A stretch of DNA of 64,000 bases from Rubrivivax sp. (GTDB lineage: Bacteria > Pseudomonadota > Gammaproteobacteria > Burkholderiales > Burkholderiaceae_C): assembly GCA_027485165.1 (NCBI GenBank), contig JAIXRN010000006.1:17291-81290 (forward strand), written 5' to 3'. Numbering within the stretch: the stretch's first letter is position 1; the number at the start of each line of letters is the position of its first letter. Shown here piece by piece: positions 7,338 through 27,933 of the stretch. A program made the translations under genes and the position numbers. Below the pieces are notes generated by a model. It did no database searches and was not told where the DNA came from. It was given only the letters and a program-made list of their open reading frames with translations.

Positions 7338-7509
7338 GGCGTTGAGCAGGGCCGAAAGGGAAAGAAAGGGGAACTGACAGGGAGAGGAAACCAGAGCCAC
7401 ACTGGATTGTGCGATGGCCGAAAGCTGGCCTGTGCTTGACGCGCACGGAGCCTGCAACCAGCATCGCCGGCACCAGAGTTTGCTTTTGCCGGTCCGGGGG
7501 GCCGCCGAC

Positions 7510-10500
7510 ATGGACGCATGGGCATCTTTCATGGGCCGAAATGGCTTCCTGCCGCACGGCTTTTGCCTGCAGTGGTCGCCTGGCGTGCTGTGGACGATGG
7601 TGGGCTCGGACGCGTTGATCGCGTTGGCCTACTTCTCAATCCCGCTGGCGATCCTCAGTTTCATCCGCCGGCGCGGGGGCGCACCGCAGGGCTATGGCCC
7701 GCTGCCCTGGCTCTTCAGCGGCTTCATCTTCGCCTGCGGGCTGACGCATGTGCTGGACATCTGGACGCTCTGGCGTCCCGACTACGGCTTGCTGGCGCTG
7801 AGCAAGGCCCTGACCGCAGGCGTTTCCACCGCCACCGCGCTGGCGCTTTGGCCGCTGATCCCGCGCGCGCTGAAGATCCCCAGCGTGCAACAGCTGCAGG
7901 CCGCCATCGCTTCGCTGGAAGCCGAGGTGGCACGCCGCCGCACTGCCGAAGAACACCTGCAGGACAGCGAACGCAGCCTGGCCGTGACCCTGGCCAGCAT
8001 CGATGCCGGCTTCCTGGCCACCGACGCCGAAGGCCGCGTCACGCGGCTCAATGCGGTGGCCGAGCGCATCACCGGCTGGACGCAGGCGCAGGCCCAGGGC
8101 CAGCTGCTCTGGGACGTGCTGGACCGCGAGGACCGGCCTGCCGGCTGGCTGCAGCGCAACCCGCTGGACGTGGCAGAGGAACTGAACACCGACATCGCCT
8201 GGGTGCAGGAAATCCGCGTGCGTTCACGCAGCGGTGCCGTCAGGCTGGTGGAGGTGCGCGCTGCCGTCACGCATGCCGAAACCATTGAAGGGAGCGAAGG
8301 GCGTGAAGCGAGTGAAGGCAGTCAAAGTGAACTCGGGCCGCGGCGCGGCCTGGTGGCCGTGTTCCGCGACATCACGCGGCTGCGCGAAGCCGAAGCCGAA
8401 CTGCCGCGCCTGGCGGCGATCGTCGAATCCTCGGAAGACGCCATCATCGGCAAGACCCTGCAGGGCCGCATCACCAGCTGGAACCGTGCGGCGCAACTGA
8501 TGTTCGGCTACACCGCCGCCGAAGCCCTGGGCCAGCCCGTGCAGATGCTGTTCCCGCCCGGCACCGAGCACCAGGAAATGGCCTTTTTGGCCGCGCTGGC
8601 GGCGGGCCAGCGCGTGCTGCCCTTCCACACCGAACGCGTCGCCAAGGACGGCACCCGCGTGCACGTGCTGGTGACGATCTCGCCCATCCGCGACGCTGGC
8701 GGGCGCATCGTGGGGGCCAGCAAGATCGCGCGCGACGTGTCGCATCTGCGCCGCGCCGAGGCAGCCCTGCGCGAAAGCCAGGCACGACTGGACTTCGCGC
8801 TGAACGCCGGGCAGATCGGCGACTGGGACTTCGACCTGGACAGCGGCAGCACCCGGCGTTCCATCCGTCACGACCGCTGCTTTGGCTACAGCGAACTGCT
8901 GCCGGCCTGGAACTTCGACCTGTGGACCCAGCACCTGCACCCCGATGACCGCGCCGCCGTGGTGGCCCGCTTCCAGGCGGCCATGGCCGAGCGCCGCGAC
9001 TGGTTCGACGAGTACCGCGTCGTGTGGCCCGACGGCAGCGTGCACTGGATCAGCGCCCACGGCAGCGTCTACGCGCCCGAAGGCCAGCCGCCGCGCGTGC
9101 TGGGCATCGTCATGGACATCACGCGCCACAAGCGCGCCGAAGAAGCGCGGCTGACGGCGCAGCGGCTGGAAGCCGAAAACCGGCAGATCCAGGAATCCAG
9201 CCGGCTGAAGAGCCAGTTCCTGGCCAACATGTCGCACGAACTGCGCACGCCGCTGAACGCCATCATCGGATTCGCCGACCTGCTGAAAGCCGGTAGCGTG
9301 CCCGAAGGCCACCCGCAGCGCGAGGTCTTCCTGGGCCACATCGCCAGCAGCGGCCGCCACCTGCTGCAGCTGATCAACGACGTGCTGGACCTGTCGAAGG
9401 TGGAATCGGGCAAGTTCGACTTCCAGCCCGAAGACGTGGACCTGCCGGCGCTGGTGGCCGATGTCTGCGCCGTGCTGCACGGCGGCCTGCAGGGCAAGCG
9501 CCTGCGGCTGGCGATCGACATCGCGCCCGACCTGGGCCCGCTGCGGCTGGACCCGGGGCGTCTGAAGCAGGCGCTCTACAACTACCTGTCCAACGCCATC
9601 AAGTTCACGCCCGAAGGCGGGCAGGTGTGGGTGCGCGCGCGGGCCGCCGGGCCGGCGCACTTCCGGCTGGAAGTGCAGGACAGCGGCATCGGCATCGCCC
9701 CGGCCGACCTGCCGCGCCTGTTCGTTGAATTCCAGCAGCTCGACAGCGGCTACAGCAAGCAGCACCAGGGCACCGGGCTGGGCCTGGCGCTCACACGGAG
9801 GCTCATCCAGGCCCAGGGCGGCAGCGTGGGCGTGCGCAGCCAGCCGGGGGTGGGCAGCGTCTTTCACCTGCTGCTGCCCTGCCAGCCGCAGCCGGCTGGG
9901 CACACGCCACCGGCCCAGCTGCTGCTGGTGGACGAAGACGGCCCGTACCGCAGCCAGCTGGCCGGCGCGCTGCGCGAAGCTGGCTGCATGGTCGACACCG
10001 CCGCTGACAGCGCCCAGGCCCTGCGCCAGGCGCGGGCCCGCAGCTACGACGCCATCACCCTGGGCTTGCAGCTGCCCGACGGCCCTGGCCTGGCCGTGCT
10101 GGACGGCCTGCGCCAGCAGCCGGGCGACAACCAGGCCACGCCCGTGCGCGGGCTGAGCATGGCGGTGGGCCCGCAGGCCAGCGCGGCCTTTGCCGTGGCC
10201 GACGTGCTGGCCAAGCCGCCGCGCAGCGGCGAAGTGCTGCAGGCCCTGGCCGCCTGCGGCCTGCCGGCCCAGGCCGGCAGGCGCGTGATGGTGATCGACG
10301 ACGACCCGCTGGCGCTGAGCCTGATGCACCACACGCTGCAGGCCGGCGGCTTTGAAGACCGCGGCTGGACCGACGGCCGCATGGCGCTACACGACCTGCC
10401 CCTGTGGCGGCCAGACGCCATCGTGCTGGATTTGATGATGCCGGGCTTCGACGGCTTTGCGGTGCTGGACGCGCTGGACCAGCAGCCCGACTGGCGCCAT

Positions 10501-10656
10501 GTGCCGGTACTGGTGTGGACCAGCCTGCTGCTGACCGACGACGAACTGGACCAGCTGGCCCAATCCGCCCGCGCCGTGCTGGCCAAGGGCGGCGGGCTGG
10601 GCGCCGTGCTGGTGGAAAGGCTGCGCCTGTGGCGGCGCACTGCGGAACAGGCGTAG
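7510..10656 (+). CDS. Hybrid sensor histidine kinase: ETR1-like (ethylene-binding type) membrane domain + 3 PAS + HisKA/HATPase + 2 receivers
   Basis: DALIALAYFSIPLAILSFIRRR...FIFACGLTHVLDIWTLWRP; PAS segments; FLANMSHELRTPLNAIIGFADLL; GTGLGLALTRRLI; two C-terminal receiver-like domains. The ORF track extends to 7414; the start at 7510 is preferred. Confidence 0.93.
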   Translation: MDAWASFMGRNGFLPHGFCLQWSPGVLWTMVGSDALIALAYFSIPLAILSFIRRRGGAPQGYGPLPWLFSGFIFACGLTHVLDIWTLWRPDYGLLALSKALTAGVSTATALALWPLIPRALKIPSVQQLQAAIASLEAEVARRRTAEEHLQDSERSLAVTLASIDAGFLATDAEGRVTRLNAVAERITGWTQAQAQGQLLWDVLDREDRPAGWLQRNPLDVAEELNTDIAWVQEIRVRSRSGAVRLVEVRAAVTHAETIEGSEGREASEGSQSELGPRRGLVAVFRDITRLREAEAELPRLAAIVESSEDAIIGKTLQGRITSWNRAAQLMFGYTAAEALGQPVQMLFPPGTEHQEMAFLAALAAGQRVLPFHTERVAKDGTRVHVLVTISPIRDAGGRIVGASKIARDVSHLRRAEAALRESQARLDFALNAGQIGDWDFDLDSGSTRRSIRHDRCFGYSELLPAWNFDLWTQHLHPDDRAAVVARFQAAMAERRDWFDEYRVVWPDGSVHWISAHGSVYAPEGQPPRVLGIVMDITRHKRAEEARLTAQRLEAENRQIQESSRLKSQFLANMSHELRTPLNAIIGFADLLKAGSVPEGHPQREVFLGHIASSGRHLLQLINDVLDLSKVESGKFDFQPEDVDLPALVADVCAVLHGGLQGKRLRLAIDIAPDLGPLRLDPGRLKQALYNYLSNAIKFTPEGGQVWVRARAAGPAHFRLEVQDSGIGIAPADLPRLFVEFQQLDSGYSKQHQGTGLGLALTRRLIQAQGGSVGVRSQPGVGSVFHLLLPCQPQPAGHTPPAQLLLVDEDGPYRSQLAGALREAGCMVDTAADSAQALRQARARSYDAITLGLQLPDGPGLAVLDGLRQQPGDNQATPVRGLSMAVGPQASAAFAVADVLAKPPRSGEVLQALAACGLPAQAGRRVMVIDDDPLALSLMHHTLQAGGFEDRGWTDGRMALHDLPLWRPDAIVLDLMMPGFDGFAVLDALDQQPDWRHVPVLVWTSLLLTDDELDQLAQSARAVLAKGGGLGAVLVERLRLWRRTAEQA

Positions 10657-18517: not shown

Positions 18518-19156
18518 TCAGCGCGCCCGTTTGCGCCGGGCCAGCAGCAGGCCGCCCAGGCCCATCAGCATCAGGACGTAGGTCTGAGGCTCGGGGATGG
18601 CAGCGGCGATGTCGCCGGGGCGCACAGCGACGGCAAAGAACGAGGCGCTTTGGCCATCGATGAACTGGTTGCCATTGCTGGCGCTGAACCGCCATGCCAA
18701 ACTGGGAATAGACGCGAACACCGAGCCGGACCAATGGTTGTTGCCGGCCTGCACGCCGTCAAACTGGCCCGACAGCCCGGCAAAACTGCTGCCCACACTG
18801 TTCCAGATCGATAAAAACTGGTTTTGGGCGCCTACCGCCGCCTCGTTATCGCCAGTGGGCAGCACCCAGCCTGTCAGGCCCGAAGCCGCCAAGCCAGCCG
18901 TTGCCGCCAAGGCCTGTGCGGAGCCCAGCGCAGCGCTGGCGCTCCAGGTGCCCGTGCCCAGGTTCCAGTTGTTCAGGATCGTGATGCCGAGCGTGGTGTC
19001 GTAGAAGAACGTGCACTTGCCCGGCCCCGTGGCCGTGCAGGTGGCGCTGGGCGCACCGGTGTTGTCACGCCCCTGGAACGCCGCCTGGGCGGTGCCTGCC
19101 ACGCCCATCAGCGCAGCCATCGTCACCGCTGCTGCGGCCTGGTGATTCAAACGCAT
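18518..19156 (-). CDS. PEP-CTERM sorting-domain protein
   Basis: MRLNHQAAAAVTMAALMGVAGTAQA signal peptide; C-terminus IPEPQTYVLMLMGLGGLLLARRKRAR. Confidence 0.9.
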   Translation of the reverse strand: MRLNHQAAAAVTMAALMGVAGTAQAAFQGRDNTGAPSATCTATGPGKCTFFYDTTLGITILNNWNLGTGTWSASAALGSAQALAATAGLAASGLTGWVLPTGDNEAAVGAQNQFLSIWNSVGSSFAGLSGQFDGVQAGNNHWSGSVFASIPSLAWRFSASNGNQFIDGQSASFFAVAVRPGDIAAAIPEPQTYVLMLMGLGGLLLARRKRAR

Positions 19157-19311
19157 GGAAAACTCCCTGGAAACCTTGGTTAGCGGTGGCCCACAGCTTC
19201 TCATGCGAGCGCGTCCCGATCTACCTTCCCCCATCCCCGACCTGGGGGACCTCAAGGGGCTGCACCCCCCGGGTGAGTGCTTCGACTCGTGGGCCGGGTG
19301 GGGTGTCGTGT

Positions 19312-19716
19312 CTACGCCTTGGCCAGCAGCTGAGCGCCACTGAGCTTGGCGGCGCCCTTGTCGAAGGTCCACAGCGGCTGTTCGTTGGCTTGGGTGACCA
19401 ATGCGACGTGAAGGCAGTCAGCGAAGTCTGCCGAGTTCTTGCGGAACAACTGCAGCGCCACTTCGAGGGCTTGCTCGGATTCGAAGCTCAGCTCGGCTGC
19501 AGAGAACAGGCTGGACAGTGTGAGCAGCACGTCGCTCTTTGCAAACCCGAAGCTCGACCTCAGCACCCACTCAAGTTCCAGCACGACGGTGACAGGAACA
19601 AACAGCGTCAGGCCCTGGCTGACGCAGCGGCTGATCAGCCGCTTCGCCGCAGCGAGCTGCGCGGCGTCGTCCTGGACGATGTAGCGCACCAGGACGTTGG
19701 TGTCGAGCGCCGCCAT
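19312..19716 (-). CDS. PIN-domain toxin, VapC-like
   Basis: MAALDTNVLVRYIVQDD...VVLELEWVLRS...ADFADCLHVALV...LWTFDKGAAKL: PIN acidic residues in place. Confidence 0.9.
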   Translation of the reverse strand: MAALDTNVLVRYIVQDDAAQLAAAKRLISRCVSQGLTLFVPVTVVLELEWVLRSSFGFAKSDVLLTLSSLFSAAELSFESEQALEVALQLFRKNSADFADCLHVALVTQANEQPLWTFDKGAAKLSGAQLLAKA

Positions 19717-19729
19717 CTGGTTGCCGCCG

Positions 19730-19951
19730 TCAGCGCCAGGGGTTCATGTCCTCGACCCTGACGCTCTTGCCCTTCGGGCCCTTGAGCATGCCGGCCATGT
19801 CGAGGATGGACTTGGACTTGGCCCGGACGATGATGGTGCCGTCCGGCATCACCGACCAGACCAGGCGCGTACCCGGCTTGGCATCGACCAGAGCCCGGAT
19901 GTCGGCCGGCACGGTGGTCTGCCCCTTGGCAGTGATGGTGGATTCGGTCAT
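19730..19951 (-). CDS. AbrB/MazE-family antitoxin (VapB-like)
   Basis: MTESTITAKGQTTVPADIRALVDAKPGTRLVWSVMPDGTIIVRAKSKSILDMAGMLKG; immediately upstream of the VapC-like gene. Confidence 0.88.
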   Translation of the reverse strand: MTESTITAKGQTTVPADIRALVDAKPGTRLVWSVMPDGTIIVRAKSKSILDMAGMLKGPKGKSVRVEDMNPWR

Positions 19952-20070
19952 GGCTCGGCTCCTTACCAGAGCCTGGATTGTAATGCGCACCATCGGAATC
20001 TTTGCTTGACAGCTGCGGACTGTCGAGTTGCCGACCCGCCCACGCCCACGCCAGCGCCTGCACCCCGCGC

Positions 20071-21045
20071 TCAGCCCGCCTTCAACTCCCGCACCTTCTG
20101 CACCGCCACCGCCGCCGCGGCGGTGCGCGTTTCCACGCCCAGCTTTTCGAAGATGCGTTCCAGGTGCTTCTTCACCGTGGCCGGGCTGGTGCCCAGGATG
20201 TCGCCGATGTCGCGGTTGGTCTTGCCCTTCACCACCCAGTAGAGCACTTCGCTTTCGCGCAGCGTCAGGCGCAGCGCCAGCATCGTGGCCTCGACGGTGG
20301 CGGCGTCGCTCACCTCGCGCAGCACCACCAGCCAGTCTTCGTCGCTGGTGCGGCCCTGCAGCGTGCACACCAGTTGCTGCGCACCGCGGGCCAGGGTCAG
20401 CGGCTTGGTCTCGGGCTGTGCCACGGCGGCTTCCAGCCAGGCCAGCAGCACTGCTGGCACGCGGTCGGCGGCGGCTTCGGGTGGGGCGACGTCGAAGTAG
20501 GCTGGCAGCCAGCGCCGCGCCAGTGGCGTCTGCCACACCAGGCGGGCGCCGTTGTTCAGCAGCCCGTCCACCAGACGCACGGCAATCGTCGCGTGGCCAT
20601 AGGCGTCCAGCGCATTACGCGCCTGCCGCGCCTGGCGCGCCCCTCGCATGTGCACGCCCATGCGCGCGATCACTTCGGCGGCGCGGATGGGCTTGGTGAC
20701 GTAGTCCACCCCGCCGGCTTCAAACGCCGCCAGCACGTGTTCGGTCTCGGTCAGCCCGGTCATGAAGATGATCGGGATGTGCGCCGTCTCAGGCCCGGCC
20801 TTCAGGCGCCGCGCCACTTCGAAGCCGTCGATGCCGGGCATCAGCGCGTCCAGCAGCACGATGTCGGGTTCGGCCTGCTGCGCGCGCTGCAGCGCGGTGG
20901 CGCCGTCGGTGGCCACCAGCACGGTGTAGCCGGCTTCGTCCAGCGCGTCGTGCAGAACGGCCAGGTTGTCGGGCACGTCGTCGACGATCAGCACCAGGCC
21001 CAGCGTGGGCCGCGCCGGGTCCAGCGCACGGGGCTCAATCGACAC
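20071..21045 (-). CDS. Response regulator, receiver + LuxR-type HTH
   Basis: LVLIVDDVPDNLAVLHDALDEAGY...DIVLLDALMPGIDGFEVARRL...; C-terminal LTLRESEVLYWVVKGKTNRDIGDILGTSPATVKKHLERIFEKLGVETRTAA. Confidence 0.94.
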   Translation of the reverse strand: MSIEPRALDPARPTLGLVLIVDDVPDNLAVLHDALDEAGYTVLVATDGATALQRAQQAEPDIVLLDALMPGIDGFEVARRLKAGPETAHIPIIFMTGLTETEHVLAAFEAGGVDYVTKPIRAAEVIARMGVHMRGARQARQARNALDAYGHATIAVRLVDGLLNNGARLVWQTPLARRWLPAYFDVAPPEAAADRVPAVLLAWLEAAVAQPETKPLTLARGAQQLVCTLQGRTSDEDWLVVLREVSDAATVEATMLALRLTLRESEVLYWVVKGKTNRDIGDILGTSPATVKKHLERIFEKLGVETRTAAAAVAVQKVRELKAG

Positions 21046-24000
21046 GGCTGCGCTCCAGTGCCTGCTGCACCAGTGGCGTCATGCGGTCGAATTCAAAGCC
21101 ATGGGCAAGGGCGCGAAGCGGCCCCAGGAAGGCTGCACATTCGGGGTGGTGGGTGGCGATCTCGTCGAGCTGCTTGTTCACGCCGCGAGGGTAGCCCAGG
21201 CGCAGCACGTCCTGCAGGGCCAGCAGCCTGTCGCGCGGGGGCAGGGCAGGCGGTGGTGCATCGGGTGCATCAGGCGTTTTGTCCGGTGGGTGCGCAGCCG
21301 CCGGCTCGGCCACGGTCGCCAGCCACTGCAGGCCCAGATGCTGGCCCAGCCAGTCCAGCAGCTCGTCGAAGCGCACGGGCTTGGTGATGAAGTCGGCCGC
21401 GGTGATGCCCACGTCGTTGTCCAGGCCCTTGTCGAAGGCGTTGGCCGAGACCACGGCCACCGGCGCCGTGCTCAGCCCCTGGCGGCGCAGCGCGCGGATG
21501 GTGTCCCAGCCGTCGATGCCGGGCATGGCCAGGTCCATCAGGATGGCGTCGACAGGCGCCTGCGCGGGCAGTGTCTTGGCAGGCTGCGCGTGCCCCACTT
21601 CATGCAGCAGGCCCAGCGCGGCGTGGCCGCTGGCGGCCTGCAGCACGTCAAAGCCCAGCGCTTCCAGCCGGCGTGCCAGCAGCGTGCGGTCCACCTCTTC
21701 GTTGTCCACCACCAGCACGCGCCGGCGCGGCACGGCATAGCCCGCGCGCGCGGGCAGGGCACGCGGGGCGCGGGCGCCGGGTAGTTCCGGCAGGAACAGG
21801 CGCACGCGGAACAGCGTGCCGCCTGAGCTGGCAACACCGGCTTGCGCCGTGGCCACGCGCGAGCTCACCGTCATCTCGCCGCCCATCAGGTCGGTCAGCA
21901 TCTTGGCGATCGTCAGGCCCAGGCCGGTGCCGGCCTGGCTGCCGCTGCTGCCTCCACTGCCACTGCTGCCACTGCCGCCGCTGGCATGCGCGCCACGCGA
22001 GAAGGGTTCGAAGATGCGCTCGATCTCGGCCGGCTCGATGCCCGGGCCGGTGTCTTCGATTTCGAAGATCGCCATGCCCCGCACCTGGCTGGCGCGGAAG
22101 GCCACGCGGCCCTGGGCCGTGAACTTCACCGCGTTGCCCAGCACGTTGATCAAGATCTGGCTCAGCCGCCGTTCATCGGCCCGCACCAGGGCTGGGGCGG
22201 CGTCGATGCTGTGCTCGAAGCGCAGGCCCTTGGCCAGCGCCTGCAGTTCGAACATGCGCACGATCTGCTGCAGGCTGTCGCGCAGGCGCATGGGTTGCGG
22301 GTCCAGCGCCAGCTTGCCGCTTTCGATGCGCGCGATGTCCAGCGTGCCTTCGATCAGGCTCAGTAGGTGTTCGCCGCCGCGGCGGATGACGCCCACCGCC
22401 TGGCGCCGGTGCGGCGGCATCGACGGGTCTTCGTCCAGCAGCTGCGCATAGCCCAGGATGCTGTTCAGCGGCGTGCGCAGCTCGTGGCTGATGGTGCTGA
22501 TGTAGCGCGTCTTGGCCTGGTTGGCGGTGTCGGCTGCTGCGCGTGCGGCATCGGCAGCTGCGCGTGCGGCATCAGCATTCGCACGTGCGGCGTCGGCGTT
22601 CTGCTTGGCACGCTGCAGGGCTTCGTCGGTGCGGCGGTGGCTGTCGATCTCGCGCACCAGGGCTTCGGTCTGGCGGTTGCTTTCTTCCTGCGCCACGCGC
22701 CGGCTCATCTGCGTGAGCACCAGCCACCAGCCGATGATGCCGCCCACCAGCAGCAGCGCGGCATAGGCCTTGATGAAGCCTTGCTTCAGCGTCGGGGCCA
22801 CGCTGGCGGCCTGGTCGCCCAGGCCCTTCAGTTCCAGCTGGTAGGTGACGAACAGCAGCGCGGCCAGTGCCGGCGTGACGATGGCCATCAGCAGCAGGTA
22901 GCGGCCCAGCCCGGTGTCCAGCTGCGGCCACAGGCGCTGCGGCAGCAGCGGGCGCAACAGGCTGCGCCACTGCACGGAAAGGCGCGCGGCTTCTGGCTTG
23001 CACAGGTCGTGGCAGCGCGCGTCCAGGCTGCAGCACAGGCTGCAGATGGGGCCGCCGTAGGCGGGGCACTGGGCCATGTCTTCGCCTTCGTAGGGGCGTT
23101 CGCAGATCGTGCAAAGCCGCATGCGCCGTGCCGTGCCCAGATAGGCGCCATCGGCATCTAAAGAAGTGCGGGCGATGTAGTAGCGGCCTTTTGTGGCCCA
23201 GGCGATCAGCGGCGACACCGTGAAGGCCACCGCCGCCGCAATGGCGGCCGAGAACGCCTGCGCCATCGGCCCGAAGGCGCCCAGGTAAGCGGCGATCGAC
23301 AGCACGCTGGCCGCGCCCATCGCGCCCACGCCCACCGGGTTGATGTCGTACAGGTGCGCGCGCTTGAACTCGATGCCCTTCGGGCTCCAGCCCAGGGGCT
23401 TGTTGACGACGAGATCGGCCACCACGGCCATCAGCCAGCTGATGGCGATGTTGCTGTACAGGCCCAGCACGCCGCCGATGGCCTTGAAGACTTCCAGCTC
23501 CATCAGCAGCAGCGCGATCAGGGTGTTGAACACCATCCACACCACGCGCCCGGGGTGGCTGTGCGTGATGCGCGCGAAGAAGTTGCTCCAGGCCAGGCTG
23601 CCGGCATAGGCGTTGGTGACGTTGATCTTCAGCTGCGACACCACCACGAACAGGCAGGTCACAGCCACCGCCAGCGTGTAGTTCGGGAACACGCCGTTGA
23701 AGGCCGCCAGGTACATCTGGTTCGGGTCCACCGCGCGGTCGGGCGGCACGGCCAGCTGCAGCGCCAGCATCGCCAGCAGCGCGCCGCCCAGCATCTTCAC
23801 CACCCCCAGCACCACCCAGCCCGGCCCGCCCAGCAGGACAGACCCCCACCAGCGCCAGCGGTTGGCGGGCGTCTGTTCGGGCATGAAGCGCAGGTAGTCC
23901 ACCTGTTCGCCCATCTGCGTGATGAGGGCGATGCCCACCGTCAGCGCTGCGCCGAACAGCAGCGGGTTGAAGGCCCCGCCTTGCCCGTCCAGCCCGGCAT

Positions 24001-24664
24001 AGGCCTGCAGGTCGGCCAGCAGCGTGGGGTGGGCGCTGAAGACGTAGACGTAGGGCAGCACCAGCAGCACCAGCCACAGCGGCTGCGTCCACATCTGCAG
24101 CTGGCTGATGGCCGTGACGCCGTGCGTGACCAGCGGGATGACCACCAGCGCGCAGATCAGGTAGCCCCAGGCCGGCGGGATGTCGAAGGCCAGCTCCAGC
24201 GCGTAAGCCATGATGGCCGCTTCCAGCGCGAAGAAGATGAAGGTGAAGCTGGCGTAGATGAGGCTGGTGATGGTGCTGCCGATGTAGCCGAAGCCCGCGC
24301 CGCGCGTGAGCAGGTCCATGTCCAGGCCGTAGCGCGCGGCGTAGACGCTGATGGGCAGCCCGGCAGCGAAGATCACCGCCCCCGTGGCCAGGATCGCCCA
24401 GAAGGCGTTGATGAAGCCGTACTGCACCAGCAGCGTGGCGCCCAGCGCTTCCAGCACCAGGAACGACGCCGCGCCGAAGGCGGTGTTGGACACACGCCAG
24501 CCGCTCCACTTGCGGAAAGACCGCGGCGTGAAGCGCAGCGCGTAGTCCTCGACTGTTTCGCTGGCGACCCAGCTGTTGTAGTCGCGCCGGACCTTGATGA
24601 CACGCTGCTGGGGCAGCGCGGCGGGCGGGGCGGTATGGCCTTGCGGGCCGACAGGTGCGGTCAT
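21035..24664 (-). CDS. NCS1-type (purine/cytosine permease-like) transporter fused to histidine kinase and receiver
   Basis: N-terminal NCS1-like membrane domain (VEDYALRFTPRSFRKWSGWRVSNTAFGAASFLVLEALGATLLVQYGF...GFGYIGSTITSLIYASFTFIFFALE); Cys cluster; ISTISHELRTPLNSILGYAQLL; GTGLGLTIAKMLTDLMGGEM; receiver RRVLVVDNEEVDRTLLARRLEALGFDVLQA...DAILMDLAMPGIDGWDTIRAL. Confidence 0.93.
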   Translation of the reverse strand: MTAPVGPQGHTAPPAALPQQRVIKVRRDYNSWVASETVEDYALRFTPRSFRKWSGWRVSNTAFGAASFLVLEALGATLLVQYGFINAFWAILATGAVIFAAGLPISVYAARYGLDMDLLTRGAGFGYIGSTITSLIYASFTFIFFALEAAIMAYALELAFDIPPAWGYLICALVVIPLVTHGVTAISQLQMWTQPLWLVLLVLPYVYVFSAHPTLLADLQAYAGLDGQGGAFNPLLFGAALTVGIALITQMGEQVDYLRFMPEQTPANRWRWWGSVLLGGPGWVVLGVVKMLGGALLAMLALQLAVPPDRAVDPNQMYLAAFNGVFPNYTLAVAVTCLFVVVSQLKINVTNAYAGSLAWSNFFARITHSHPGRVVWMVFNTLIALLLMELEVFKAIGGVLGLYSNIAISWLMAVVADLVVNKPLGWSPKGIEFKRAHLYDINPVGVGAMGAASVLSIAAYLGAFGPMAQAFSAAIAAAVAFTVSPLIAWATKGRYYIARTSLDADGAYLGTARRMRLCTICERPYEGEDMAQCPAYGGPICSLCCSLDARCHDLCKPEAARLSVQWRSLLRPLLPQRLWPQLDTGLGRYLLLMAIVTPALAALLFVTYQLELKGLGDQAASVAPTLKQGFIKAYAALLLVGGIIGWWLVLTQMSRRVAQEESNRQTEALVREIDSHRRTDEALQRAKQNADAARANADAARAAADAARAAADTANQAKTRYISTISHELRTPLNSILGYAQLLDEDPSMPPHRRQAVGVIRRGGEHLLSLIEGTLDIARIESGKLALDPQPMRLRDSLQQIVRMFELQALAKGLRFEHSIDAAPALVRADERRLSQILINVLGNAVKFTAQGRVAFRASQVRGMAIFEIEDTGPGIEPAEIERIFEPFSRGAHASGGSGSSGSGGSSGSQAGTGLGLTIAKMLTDLMGGEMTVSSRVATAQAGVASSGGTLFRVRLFLPELPGARAPRALPARAGYAVPRRRVLVVDNEEVDRTLLARRLEALGFDVLQAASGHAALGLLHEVGHAQPAKTLPAQAPVDAILMDLAMPGIDGWDTIRALRRQGLSTAPVAVVSANAFDKGLDNDVGITAADFITKPVRFDELLDWLGQHLGLQWLATVAEPAAAHPPDKTPDAPDAPPPALPPRDRLLALQDVLRLGYPRGVNKQLDEIATHHPECAAFLGPLRALAHGFEFDRMTPLVQQALERSRVD

Positions 24665-24710: not shown

Positions 24711-25109
24711 TCAACCGGGGTACCGGTCGAACCCGTGGGATGCCAGCCCGGCCTGCAGCCAGGCTATGCGTTCGGCCGTCTGCACCTGGCACTGCGGGGC
24801 CATGATGGCGTCGGGCTCGTCCAGCGTGGCGCTCTGCAGGTCGATCAGGCCGTCAAAGACGACATCGTTCGTGTAGAAAAGCCCAGTGCCGCAGTCGCCA
24901 CAGAAGTGCCGGCGCCCGTGTTCTGACGAGGCGCGCAGCTTGGGCGTGCCCTGGGTCAGCTCGATCTCACCCAGCTTGAAGATCGCCCAGGCCACCGCCG
25001 GCGCGCCGGCGCTGCGCCGGCAGTCGGTGCAGTGGCAGATGGAATGGCGGCTCGGGGCCGCCAGGGCCCGGTAGCGCACAGCGCCGCAGTGGCATCCGCC
25101 CATCAGCAT
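24711..25109 (-). CDS. GFA family (glutathione-dependent formaldehyde-activating enzyme/CENP-V-like) protein
   Basis: GGCHCGAVRYRALA...SICHCTDCRRSAGAPAVAW...RHFCGDCGTGLFYTN. Confidence 0.92.
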   Translation of the reverse strand: MLMGGCHCGAVRYRALAAPSRHSICHCTDCRRSAGAPAVAWAIFKLGEIELTQGTPKLRASSEHGRRHFCGDCGTGLFYTNDVVFDGLIDLQSATLDEPDAIMAPQCQVQTAERIAWLQAGLASHGFDRYPG

Positions 25110-25323
25110 GGGGTGCTCCTGGAGTTGCAGCCTGCAAGGCTACCAACACCGGGGGCCCCCGTGTCGGCGGGCAGTGCAAATCTCACAGCGGGGTGGCGCA
25201 CGCGGCTGCGATGCGAAATCAAGGGCTCGGAGTTTCGCGTGCGGGGCGCCGCGCCGCGTCGGCATTTCGGACCATACGACCTGTCGCGGTTTCCGTCACC
25301 TTCGCAACCTCTTCTGTCTAGCC

Positions 25324-27933
25324 ATGAAGCACCCTGCCTTTTCCCCAACGACCTTGTCTTTGGCCGTTGCCGCCTTGCTGAGCGTACCTGTGGCCGCCCA
25401 CAGCAACACTTGCGCCGTGCAAGCTGGCGACCAATGCCTGGTGACCACGGCCCACATGGACCGCTGGGGCCAGGCGTCCAGCACCTCCAGCGTGCCGATC
25501 AAGGCCAACACGGTGAAGATCACCCCGGGCTACCTGCTGATCGCCTATTCGTCGGCGGCGCGCACCGGCACGGGCCAGCGTATCCAGTTGCAGGCGACGC
25601 CGGCCAGCCAGGCCAACATGGGCTGGGCCAGCAACGTGGGATTCCGCAGGTATTGGGTCTACAAGGTGCCCACGAACGCCGACCGCAGCCCGCCCACCGA
25701 GCCCTTCAACGTCATCGCCACGGCGCAGGTCTTCAGCCCCTACGCCTGCGCCGAAGAAGGCGCCAGCTGCCAGGTACCGCCGAACACCCGCATCGCCTTC
25801 GGCGCGGGCAAGGACTTCAACGTGCTCGAAAAGTCCGGCACCTTCAGCTGCTCGACGCTGGAGTTCGGTGACCCCGCCCATGGCGTGCGCAAGGCCTGCT
25901 ACCCGATGGCCGGCGCGGCCGAGGCGCGCCGCCAGGTGGAAGACCTGAACCGGGGCCTGGTGGCCGTGCGCGAAGGCCAGGGCGTCTACATGAGCTGGCG
26001 CCTGCTGGCCACCGACCCCGGCGACCTGGCGTTCAACGTTTATCACAGCCGCCATTCCAACGGCGCTGGCCGAACCTTGCTGACGCCCCAGCCGGTGGCC
26101 GACGCCACGCAGCTGAAGCTGGCGTCCACGCAGTTTCAGGATGGCTTCTTCACCGTGGTGCCGGTGCTGAACGGCGCTGAACAGGCAGACCGCGCCCAGA
26201 CCGTGCGGCCGTGGACGCGCCCGTTCCTGGAACTTCCGGTGGCCCCGCCCACGGGCCGGCTGCCGGGGTCCACCTACGCCGTGAAGGACGCCAGCGTGGG
26301 CGACCTGGACGGCGACGGCGCATACGAGCTGGTCGTGAAGTGGGAACCGAATACCGCCCGCGACAACTCGCAGCCGGGCGACACCGACAACACCTACGTC
26401 GACGCCTACAAGCTGAATGGCACACGCCTGTGGCGCATCGACCTGGGCCGCAACATCCGTTCGGGCGCGCACTACACGCCCATGATGGTGTACGACTTCG
26501 ACGGCGACGGCCGCGCCGAACTGGCCATGCGCACATCGGACGGCACCGTCGACGGCCGCGGCGTCGTGATCGGCAGGCCCAACGACGACCACCGCCAGCC
26601 TGACGGCTACATCCTGTCCGGGCCCGAATACCTGAGCTTCTTCCGCGGTTCTGACGGCCGGCAGATTGCGCAGACCGAGTTCAAGCCAGCACGGGGCGAC
26701 CGCAGCGGGGGCAAGTGGCACCACAGCTGGGGCGACGACTACGGCAACCGCATCGACCGCTTCCTGGGCGGTGTGGCTTACCTGGACGGCGTGAGGCCCA
26801 GTCTGATCATGACGCGCGGCTACTACGCCCGATCGGTGGTCGGCGCCTGGGACCTGCGCAAGGACGACAACGGTCGCTATTCGATTTCGCAGCGCTGGAT
26901 CTTCGACACGCACGACGAAAACCTGATCCCGCCGCGTGGCAACAACGGGCGTGACCGTCCCATGCCGGAGGACCAGAACCCAGCCATCGTGCACCGCGGT
27001 TACACCGGGCAGGGCGCGCATTCGATGTTCATTGCCGATGTCGACTTCGACGGTCGGGACGAGGTGGTTTACGGCGCGGCCGTCATTCAGCACGACGGCA
27101 AGCCGGGGTACACGACGCGCCTGGGCCACGGCGACGCGTTGCAAGTGGGTGACTTCAACCCGGCGCGCCCGGGTCTGGAAGTGATGACCGTCCATGAAGA
27201 CCACCGGGCACACCAGGGCAGAGGTCTGGTGCTGCGCGACGGGCGCAGCGGGCAACTGCTGTGGACACGGGGCGACTGCGCAGGCAGCCCGCCCCCGGTC
27301 GTGGGCGACGTCGGTCGTGGCATCACGATGGACATCGACCCGCAGGCGCCGGGCGCCGAGAGCTGGTCCAACAACCACGCCTTCGTCAGCGCGGCAGGCC
27401 AGGACGCCTTCCCGGGCGCCGGTGGCAGCGACAGCGTGGCCCGGTGCAAGGCCATCCCTGGCGGTGTTCCCTTGTTCGGCATCTACTGGGACGGCGACCT
27501 GCTGCGAGAGATCTGGAGCCGTGGGCAAACCATCGAGAAGTACAAGTGGCAGGACGGAACGGGCAACGCCGGCATCTTCAATCCCAGCCAGGGCCACCCT
27601 TTCCGCACCTACATCGGCCTGAGCGACGCCGGCGCCCCGCTCCTGGTGGCCGACATCCTGGGTGACTGGCGCGAGGAATTCCTGGTCTATTCGGCCAAGA
27701 ACAAGACGCTGCGGCTGTTCACCACGACCATCCCGACCGACACCCACCAGCTGGCAGGCGAAAGCCAACGCCGTGTGCCGCGGCTGGTGACCCTGATGCA
27801 CGACACGCATTACCGGGCGGCCGTGGCGGGGCAGAACTCGGCTTACAACCAGCAGCCCAACCCCAGCTTCTTCCTGGGCAACGGCATGGACGCGCCAGCG
27901 CGGCGCCCCGTCGACGCCGCGCCGCGTCGCTAG
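25324..27933 (+). CDS. Rhamnogalacturonan lyase (PL11-like), secreted, with extra N-terminal region
   Basis: Signal peptide; EDLNRGLVAVREGQGVYMSWRLLATDP; VGDLDGDGAYELVVKWEPNTARDNSQPGDTDNTYVDAYKLNGTRLWRIDLGRNIRSGAHYTPMMVYDFDGDGRAELAMRTSDGT: PL11 beta-propeller/Ca-site signatures. Confidence 0.9.
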   Translation: MKHPAFSPTTLSLAVAALLSVPVAAHSNTCAVQAGDQCLVTTAHMDRWGQASSTSSVPIKANTVKITPGYLLIAYSSAARTGTGQRIQLQATPASQANMGWASNVGFRRYWVYKVPTNADRSPPTEPFNVIATAQVFSPYACAEEGASCQVPPNTRIAFGAGKDFNVLEKSGTFSCSTLEFGDPAHGVRKACYPMAGAAEARRQVEDLNRGLVAVREGQGVYMSWRLLATDPGDLAFNVYHSRHSNGAGRTLLTPQPVADATQLKLASTQFQDGFFTVVPVLNGAEQADRAQTVRPWTRPFLELPVAPPTGRLPGSTYAVKDASVGDLDGDGAYELVVKWEPNTARDNSQPGDTDNTYVDAYKLNGTRLWRIDLGRNIRSGAHYTPMMVYDFDGDGRAELAMRTSDGTVDGRGVVIGRPNDDHRQPDGYILSGPEYLSFFRGSDGRQIAQTEFKPARGDRSGGKWHHSWGDDYGNRIDRFLGGVAYLDGVRPSLIMTRGYYARSVVGAWDLRKDDNGRYSISQRWIFDTHDENLIPPRGNNGRDRPMPEDQNPAIVHRGYTGQGAHSMFIADVDFDGRDEVVYGAAVIQHDGKPGYTTRLGHGDALQVGDFNPARPGLEVMTVHEDHRAHQGRGLVLRDGRSGQLLWTRGDCAGSPPPVVGDVGRGITMDIDPQAPGAESWSNNHAFVSAAGQDAFPGAGGSDSVARCKAIPGGVPLFGIYWDGDLLREIWSRGQTIEKYKWQDGTGNAGIFNPSQGHPFRTYIGLSDAGAPLLVADILGDWREEFLVYSAKNKTLRLFTTTIPTDTHQLAGESQRRVPRLVTLMHDTHYRAAVAGQNSAYNQQPNPSFFLGNGMDAPARRPVDAAPRR

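Follow-up and report, generated by a model that had tools for sequence, protein, structure and literature searches.

What signal is read by a histidine kinase that carries a transporter-like membrane domain at its N-terminus, and which genes does it control? The question is raised by two adjacent genes in the window, the whole stretch of 64,000 nucleotides of Rubrivivax sp. DNA that was analysed. The first encodes a hybrid sensor histidine kinase of 1209 aa with an ATG start and an NCS1-like N-terminal membrane domain (21035..24664, minus strand; ORF and Pfam), and the second a response regulator of 324 aa with a GTG start, composed of a receiver (REC) and a LuxR-type HTH (20071..21045, minus strand; ORF and Pfam). 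By the ORF coordinates the stop of the kinase and the start of the regulator overlap by exactly 11 nt (21035..21045, minus strand), just as the original prediction had it, and this overlap suggests that the two genes are translationally coupled. A gene for a GFA-domain protein (24711..25109, minus strand; ORF and Pfam) ends 46 nt upstream of the kinase on the same strand, and the two possibly share a transcript; a rhamnogalacturonan lyase family 11 protein (25108-27933, plus strand) is encoded divergently from the GFA gene. On the other side, a gene for a PIN-domain protein (19312-19716, minus strand) is preceded by an ORF (about 19730-19960, minus strand) whose C-terminal part resembles an AbrB-type antitoxin (MTESTITAKGQTTVP...), and the two, immediately downstream of the regulator, are probably a VapBC-like pair. 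The window also encodes a protein with a PEP-CTERM sorting motif (18518-19372, minus strand) and a second large hybrid kinase (7414-10656, plus strand) with an ETR1_N (ethylene-receptor-like) N-terminus, PAS domains, HisKA, HATPase and two receivers.

The kinase is a single continuous chain. The NCS1-like membrane domain spans about residues 44-505 (23150..24535, minus strand, as are all segments of the kinase); it has no Pfam match and is supported by profile-profile and fold comparison. It is followed by a Cys-rich segment (residues 515-556; 22997..23122), recognized by its conservation in the fused proteins, in which C518, C521, C533, C541, C544, C545, C551 and C555 are kept; the segment is degraded in standalone actinobacterial homologues. 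Two hydrophobic stretches and an Ala-rich coiled-coil linker (together residues 585-716; 22517..22912), read from the sequence and helical in the model, complete the connection to the kinase. The original prediction had named neither these nor the Cys-rich segment. The catalytic part consists of HisKA (residues 717-783; 22316..22516; Pfam 1e-17) with the phospho-acceptor H727, HATPase_c (residues 830-958; 21791..22177; Pfam 8e-24) and a receiver (residues 983-1104; 21353..21718; Pfam 3e-16) with the phospho-acceptor D1044. By sequence the catalytic residues of all three domains are intact, and among 76 full-length relatives at least 97% retain H727 and D1044. Pfam detects no C-terminal Hpt in the kinase, and since the tail beyond residue 1105 contains no invariant His, there is no sign of such a domain. 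In the regulator, Pfam places REC at residues 18-128 and the LuxR HTH at 260-314; by sequence the acceptor is D66. The pair has the parts of a two-component system, namely a HisKA histidine, a HATPase, a REC aspartate and a co-encoded response regulator. The same architecture recurs in the 80 nearest loci of public genomes wherever the contig is long enough, so the fusion is neither chance nor an assembly artefact; it was also found in about 65 of 398 Pseudomonadota genomes, with open frames mostly of about 1100-1250 aa. The continuity of membrane domain, HisKA, HATPase and receiver that had been read from this stretch is borne out by the 1209-aa ORF, by Pfam and by this cross-genome survey, which the original prediction had proposed.

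The genes beside the kinase in its relatives point to urea and short-chain amides. Among the nearest loci, 68 have at least 2.5 kb of sequence upstream of the kinase; ureA lies divergent from the kinase within 1.5 kb in 53 of these, and urease genes are present at 54. Urea genes are absent from the fetched flanks of about 14 of the 68, and in several Zoogloea-like loci the kinase adjoins unrelated genes. The REC-LuxR gene follows the kinase in 69/80 loci, as detected, and in some near loci urtA-type genes occur further along after the pair. A relative from Mitsuaria (73% identity) adjoins a urease operon. More distant relatives, of 50-62% identity, are encoded on annotated plasmids divergently from ABC transporter operons for urea/amides, most of which include formamidase; across such plasmids and further genomes the kinase stands beside urtABCDE, mostly together with formamidase, FmdB or amidase. 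Urea/amide operons of this kind adjoin the kinase in Burkholderia vietnamiensis, Thioclava and Methylobacterium, while the neighbour of a Rhizobium relative is the transporter only. A Serratia plasmid, taken to represent the Klebsiella-type plasmids, carries the two genes next to, and divergent from, an operon for a urea ABC transporter and AmiF. Six further genomes (L185-L190) show the urt/fmd or urease arrangements again. A plasmid collection yielded 535 records with a relative of the kinase, 342 of them from Klebsiella; the Klebsiella plasmid relatives (L084, about 340 records) often carry the annotation 'ATP-binding protein' or ArcB. No nucleobase-catabolism genes recur beside the kinase in the loci examined.

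Some loci depart from these arrangements. In Acinetobacter baumannii the kinase (L083:9998-13471, plus strand) is divergent from a paralogue of the membrane domain that stands alone and shares 44% identity with the window's domain (L083:8195-9841, minus strand), and the locus has an amino-acid-type ABC transporter instead of urt or ure genes; paralogue and kinase could be a transporter/transceptor pair. Two loci (L183:7499-10156 and L184:7663-10347, both minus strand) encode an NCS1-like kinase without a receiver, followed by a separate REC-HisKA-HATPase protein, near FmdA, an arrangement that may represent a split relay.

The same association is seen at the level of whole genomes. In an evenly drawn sample of 398 Pseudomonadota genomes, with the fused kinase called at E<1e-100 and urtA at E<=1e-120, 65 carry the kinase. 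The urtA gene is present in 64/65 carriers against 125/333 non-carriers (Fisher P about 1e-22) and ureC, for urease, in 62/65 against 116/333 (Fisher P about 2e-21), P values that overstate independence, as the sampled genomes are related and large genomes are richer in every gene.

In the window's own genome the kinase is present in a single copy. A complete urtABCDE lies just outside the window, on the same contig and strand as the kinase, with the end of urtA 554 nt before the window start and ~20.6 kb downstream of the regulator; one urease operon is found on another contig. In the lineage of the window, L001 and L002 the kinase adjoins neither urease nor urt. The adjacency of kinase and urea genes was lost in this lineage, and the partner functions that are present point to urea. 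The genome contains no formamidase (FmdA), so that formamidase was rejected as the regulated target here, and no PF02133 permease was matched anywhere in it; genome searches thus rejected both a second kinase copy and a local PF02133 transporter.

The reading preferred here is that kinase and regulator form a urea/short-chain-amide transceptor two-component system that controls uptake and hydrolysis, to which we assign a probability of about 0.72. We infer the ligand, any transport by the membrane domain, the order of phosphotransfer, the direction in which the kinase acts and, in the window's genome, the regulon and target promoters; a urea or amide ligand is favoured because neighbourhoods and genome co-occurrence both indicate these compounds. 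Urea, or in the fmd-linked relatives formamide or another short-chain amide, would bind the NCS1-like LeuT-fold domain. Occupancy by the ligand or the transport cycle would be relayed through the Cys-rich segment and the coiled coil to HisKA (H727), and phosphate would pass from H727 to the internal receiver (D1044) and/or to the co-encoded REC-LuxR regulator. The latter would then activate the genes for uptake (urtABCDE) and for hydrolysis by urease or by formamidase/amidase. The earlier reading of the fusion as a transceptor is sound, in that a transporter-like domain outside the SLC5 type is joined to a hybrid kinase which in nearly all relatives has a LuxR-type partner.

Promoter sequences bear on another reading, in which the domain has given up direct sensing of a transported solute and instead signals ammonium or the overall nitrogen status, or serves as a co-sensor with Urt or with a standalone paralogue. 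Strict sigma-54 -24/-12 sites were found in 30/60 intergenic regions between kinase and ureA, compared with about 0.005 loci in shuffles, although many of the 60 regions come from close relatives and the independent events are fewer than 30. Of these sites 22 face the kinase and 8 face ureA, and one is also present upstream of the Acinetobacter kinase, implying that many relatives are under nitrogen-limitation control. The strict pattern was not found upstream of the kinase, ureA or urtA of the window's genome and is absent from most urt/fmd-type loci. A search of the 60 regions for a common regulator-binding motif returned mainly words from the region of the ureA start codon and no conserved dyad. 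The standalone paralogue adjoining the kinase in Acinetobacter would also fit a co-sensor, and Amt5, another transporter-kinase fusion, answers a nitrogen signal (PMC5764959). However, sigma-54 control of kinase expression is compatible with direct sensing as well, and in the alignment of relatives the membrane segments are strongly conserved with many invariant polar residues, as a binding site would be; E148, N348 and N351 are among the invariant residues within the membrane. Sensing of nitrogen status or co-sensing is accordingly considered unlikely, though it retains some weight.

The kinship of the membrane domain bears on what it might bind. Neither the window's domain nor 19 relatives match PF02133 in Pfam at E<=10, and no transporter was matched when Pfam and PDB sequences were searched with the domain or its family profile; by themselves these searches would have left the domain without an assignment. 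When the family profile was compared by hhalign with 25 members of PF02133, however, the two were co-linear over 412 columns with a probability of 96.9%, against 3.0% for the SLC5/SSF control and 0.3% for the reversed family. An AlphaFold2 model of the domain, built from 38 sequences and of moderate confidence (mean pLDDT 73.9), was compared with the entire PDB; the top five matches (E 4.9e-8 to 1.2e-6; target TM 0.63-0.73) were Mhp1 and CodB, with other LeuT-fold families ranking behind. A standalone homologue (L181) matches the family profile at 7.7e-51 and itself exceeds the PF02133 cut-off (3.6e-9), thereby bridging the kinase domain to NCS1; its gene region (L181:3949-8373, plus strand) continues with genes for a carbon-nitrogen hydrolase of the amidase family and for a binding protein resembling UrtA. 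The domain is a divergent, remote NCS1-like branch and not an ordinary PF02133 member, and is filed outside PF02133 because the Pfam profile fails where profile-profile comparison, fold and the bridging homologue succeed. The NCS1 label given to it at first fails the profile test by which the original prediction was to be refuted, the Pfam Transp_cyt_pur-type search, and stands by remote comparison. A CbrA-type SLC5 origin was ruled out by the lack of a PF00474 match and the low hhalign value, in agreement with the earlier view of a sensor distinct from that family.

In NCS1 proteins the substrate Trp/Gln of TM3 and the cation-site Ser/Thr of TM8 serve as reference positions. The aligned TM3 W..Q positions read F144/E148 in the window's domain, and a cation-site position in TM8 is occupied by a conserved Lys, K346; both readings depend on a remote alignment to these references. 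They suggest that the ring-stacking Trp and the cation-site residues have been replaced. This weighs against the ligand first proposed for the system, a purine, pyrimidine, hydantoin or related compound, and against the corresponding reading in which the domain senses these or allantoin and the LuxR regulator governs nucleobase or ureide catabolism. Such sensing would agree with the distant relationship to NCS1 proteins that carry nucleobases and hydantoins, with the annotation of one standalone actinobacterial homologue as 'allantoin permease', and with the NH-CO-NH group that ureides have in common with urea. It is nevertheless improbable: urea and amide genes recur at the loci examined and nucleobase-catabolism genes do not, the ring-stacking Trp positions appear replaced in the alignment, and the window's genome lacks a PF02133 match; together with the genome co-occurrence these observations leave the proposed ligand unsupported. 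That the domain is a LeuT fold without particular NCS1 kinship, and the label a mistake, is highly improbable, since the failure of 20/20 tested members in Pfam, the lack of a PDB match to the sequence profile and the moderate confidence of the model are outweighed by the hhalign contrast, by the rank of Mhp1 and CodB ahead of every other PDB match and by the homologue above the PF02133 cut-off.

Mhp1 (hydantoin) and CodB (cytosine) are standalone NCS1 cation symporters. They are the closest fold matches of the model, and the profile of the window's domain is co-linear with NCS1 proteins; unlike them, the domain is fused to a kinase, is missed by the Pfam NCS1 profile and seems to have other residues at the aligned substrate and cation positions. 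Among transporter-kinase fusions, CbrA of Pseudomonas is an SLC5-STAC-PAS-kinase transceptor that binds and transports histidine and has CbrB as its partner (PMC7096432, PMC13022988). It resembles the urea-linked kinase in having a full-length LeuT-fold transporter-like domain N-terminal to a histidine kinase and in nutrient-linked regulation, whereas in the window's kinase the domain is NCS1-like, the linker is rich in Cys and the receiver is internal, and the partner is of LuxR type. The CrbS/CrbR acetate switch, an SLC5-STAC hybrid kinase with acs as its target (PMC5436829, PMC5715377), likewise combines a hybrid kinase bearing a transporter-like N-terminus with a target gene of substrate metabolism, but is tied to SLC5-STAC and acetate rather than to an NCS1-like domain and urea/amide genes. 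In Ks-Amt5 of Kuenenia, an ammonium sensor kinase (PMC5764959), the domain of a nitrogen-compound transporter is again joined to a histidine kinase; it is an Amt/Rh domain, and transporter family and ligand are unrelated to those of the window's kinase.

The uptake and hydrolysis genes themselves have been described for fmdCABDEF of Methylophilus (PMC10781810) and the UTS operon of Klebsiella CG307 (PMC13060141), and it is operons of this type that the kinase-regulator pair adjoins divergently. The text of the CG307 paper does not mention a histidine kinase (PMC13060141), and the neighbours of a urt operon listed in a genome paper include an uncharacterised hybrid kinase and a LuxR regulator (PMC13296017). 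No NCS1-like, urea-linked transporter-kinase with an assigned function was found in the literature searched, which lay largely outside the subscription journals. Transporter-kinase transceptors are known as such; the NCS1-like, urea-linked form is widespread and apparently uncharacterised in that literature.

The signals of few transporter-kinase fusions are known, these being histidine for CbrA, an acetate-linked signal for CrbS and ammonium for Amt5. A urea-linked fusion of the NCS1-like kind would, if true, bring one more transporter family under the transceptor concept. Tentatively, and at slightly under even odds, this may be the first transceptor with an NCS1 fold, and a widely distributed system dedicated to sensing urea and short-chain amides. 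A former transporter with Lys in place of its cation site would then monitor urea outside the cell and drive the operons for urease and urea uptake across Pseudomonadota; it would likewise control the urea/amide operon carried on Klebsiella plasmids. In the Klebsiella-type plasmid record examined, the kinase adjoins an operon that others have tied to urinary-tract fitness while leaving its regulator undiscussed. If the urea/amide reading is true, roughly one-sixth of the sampled Pseudomonadota genomes would possess in this pair a regulator for the use of urea and amide nitrogen.
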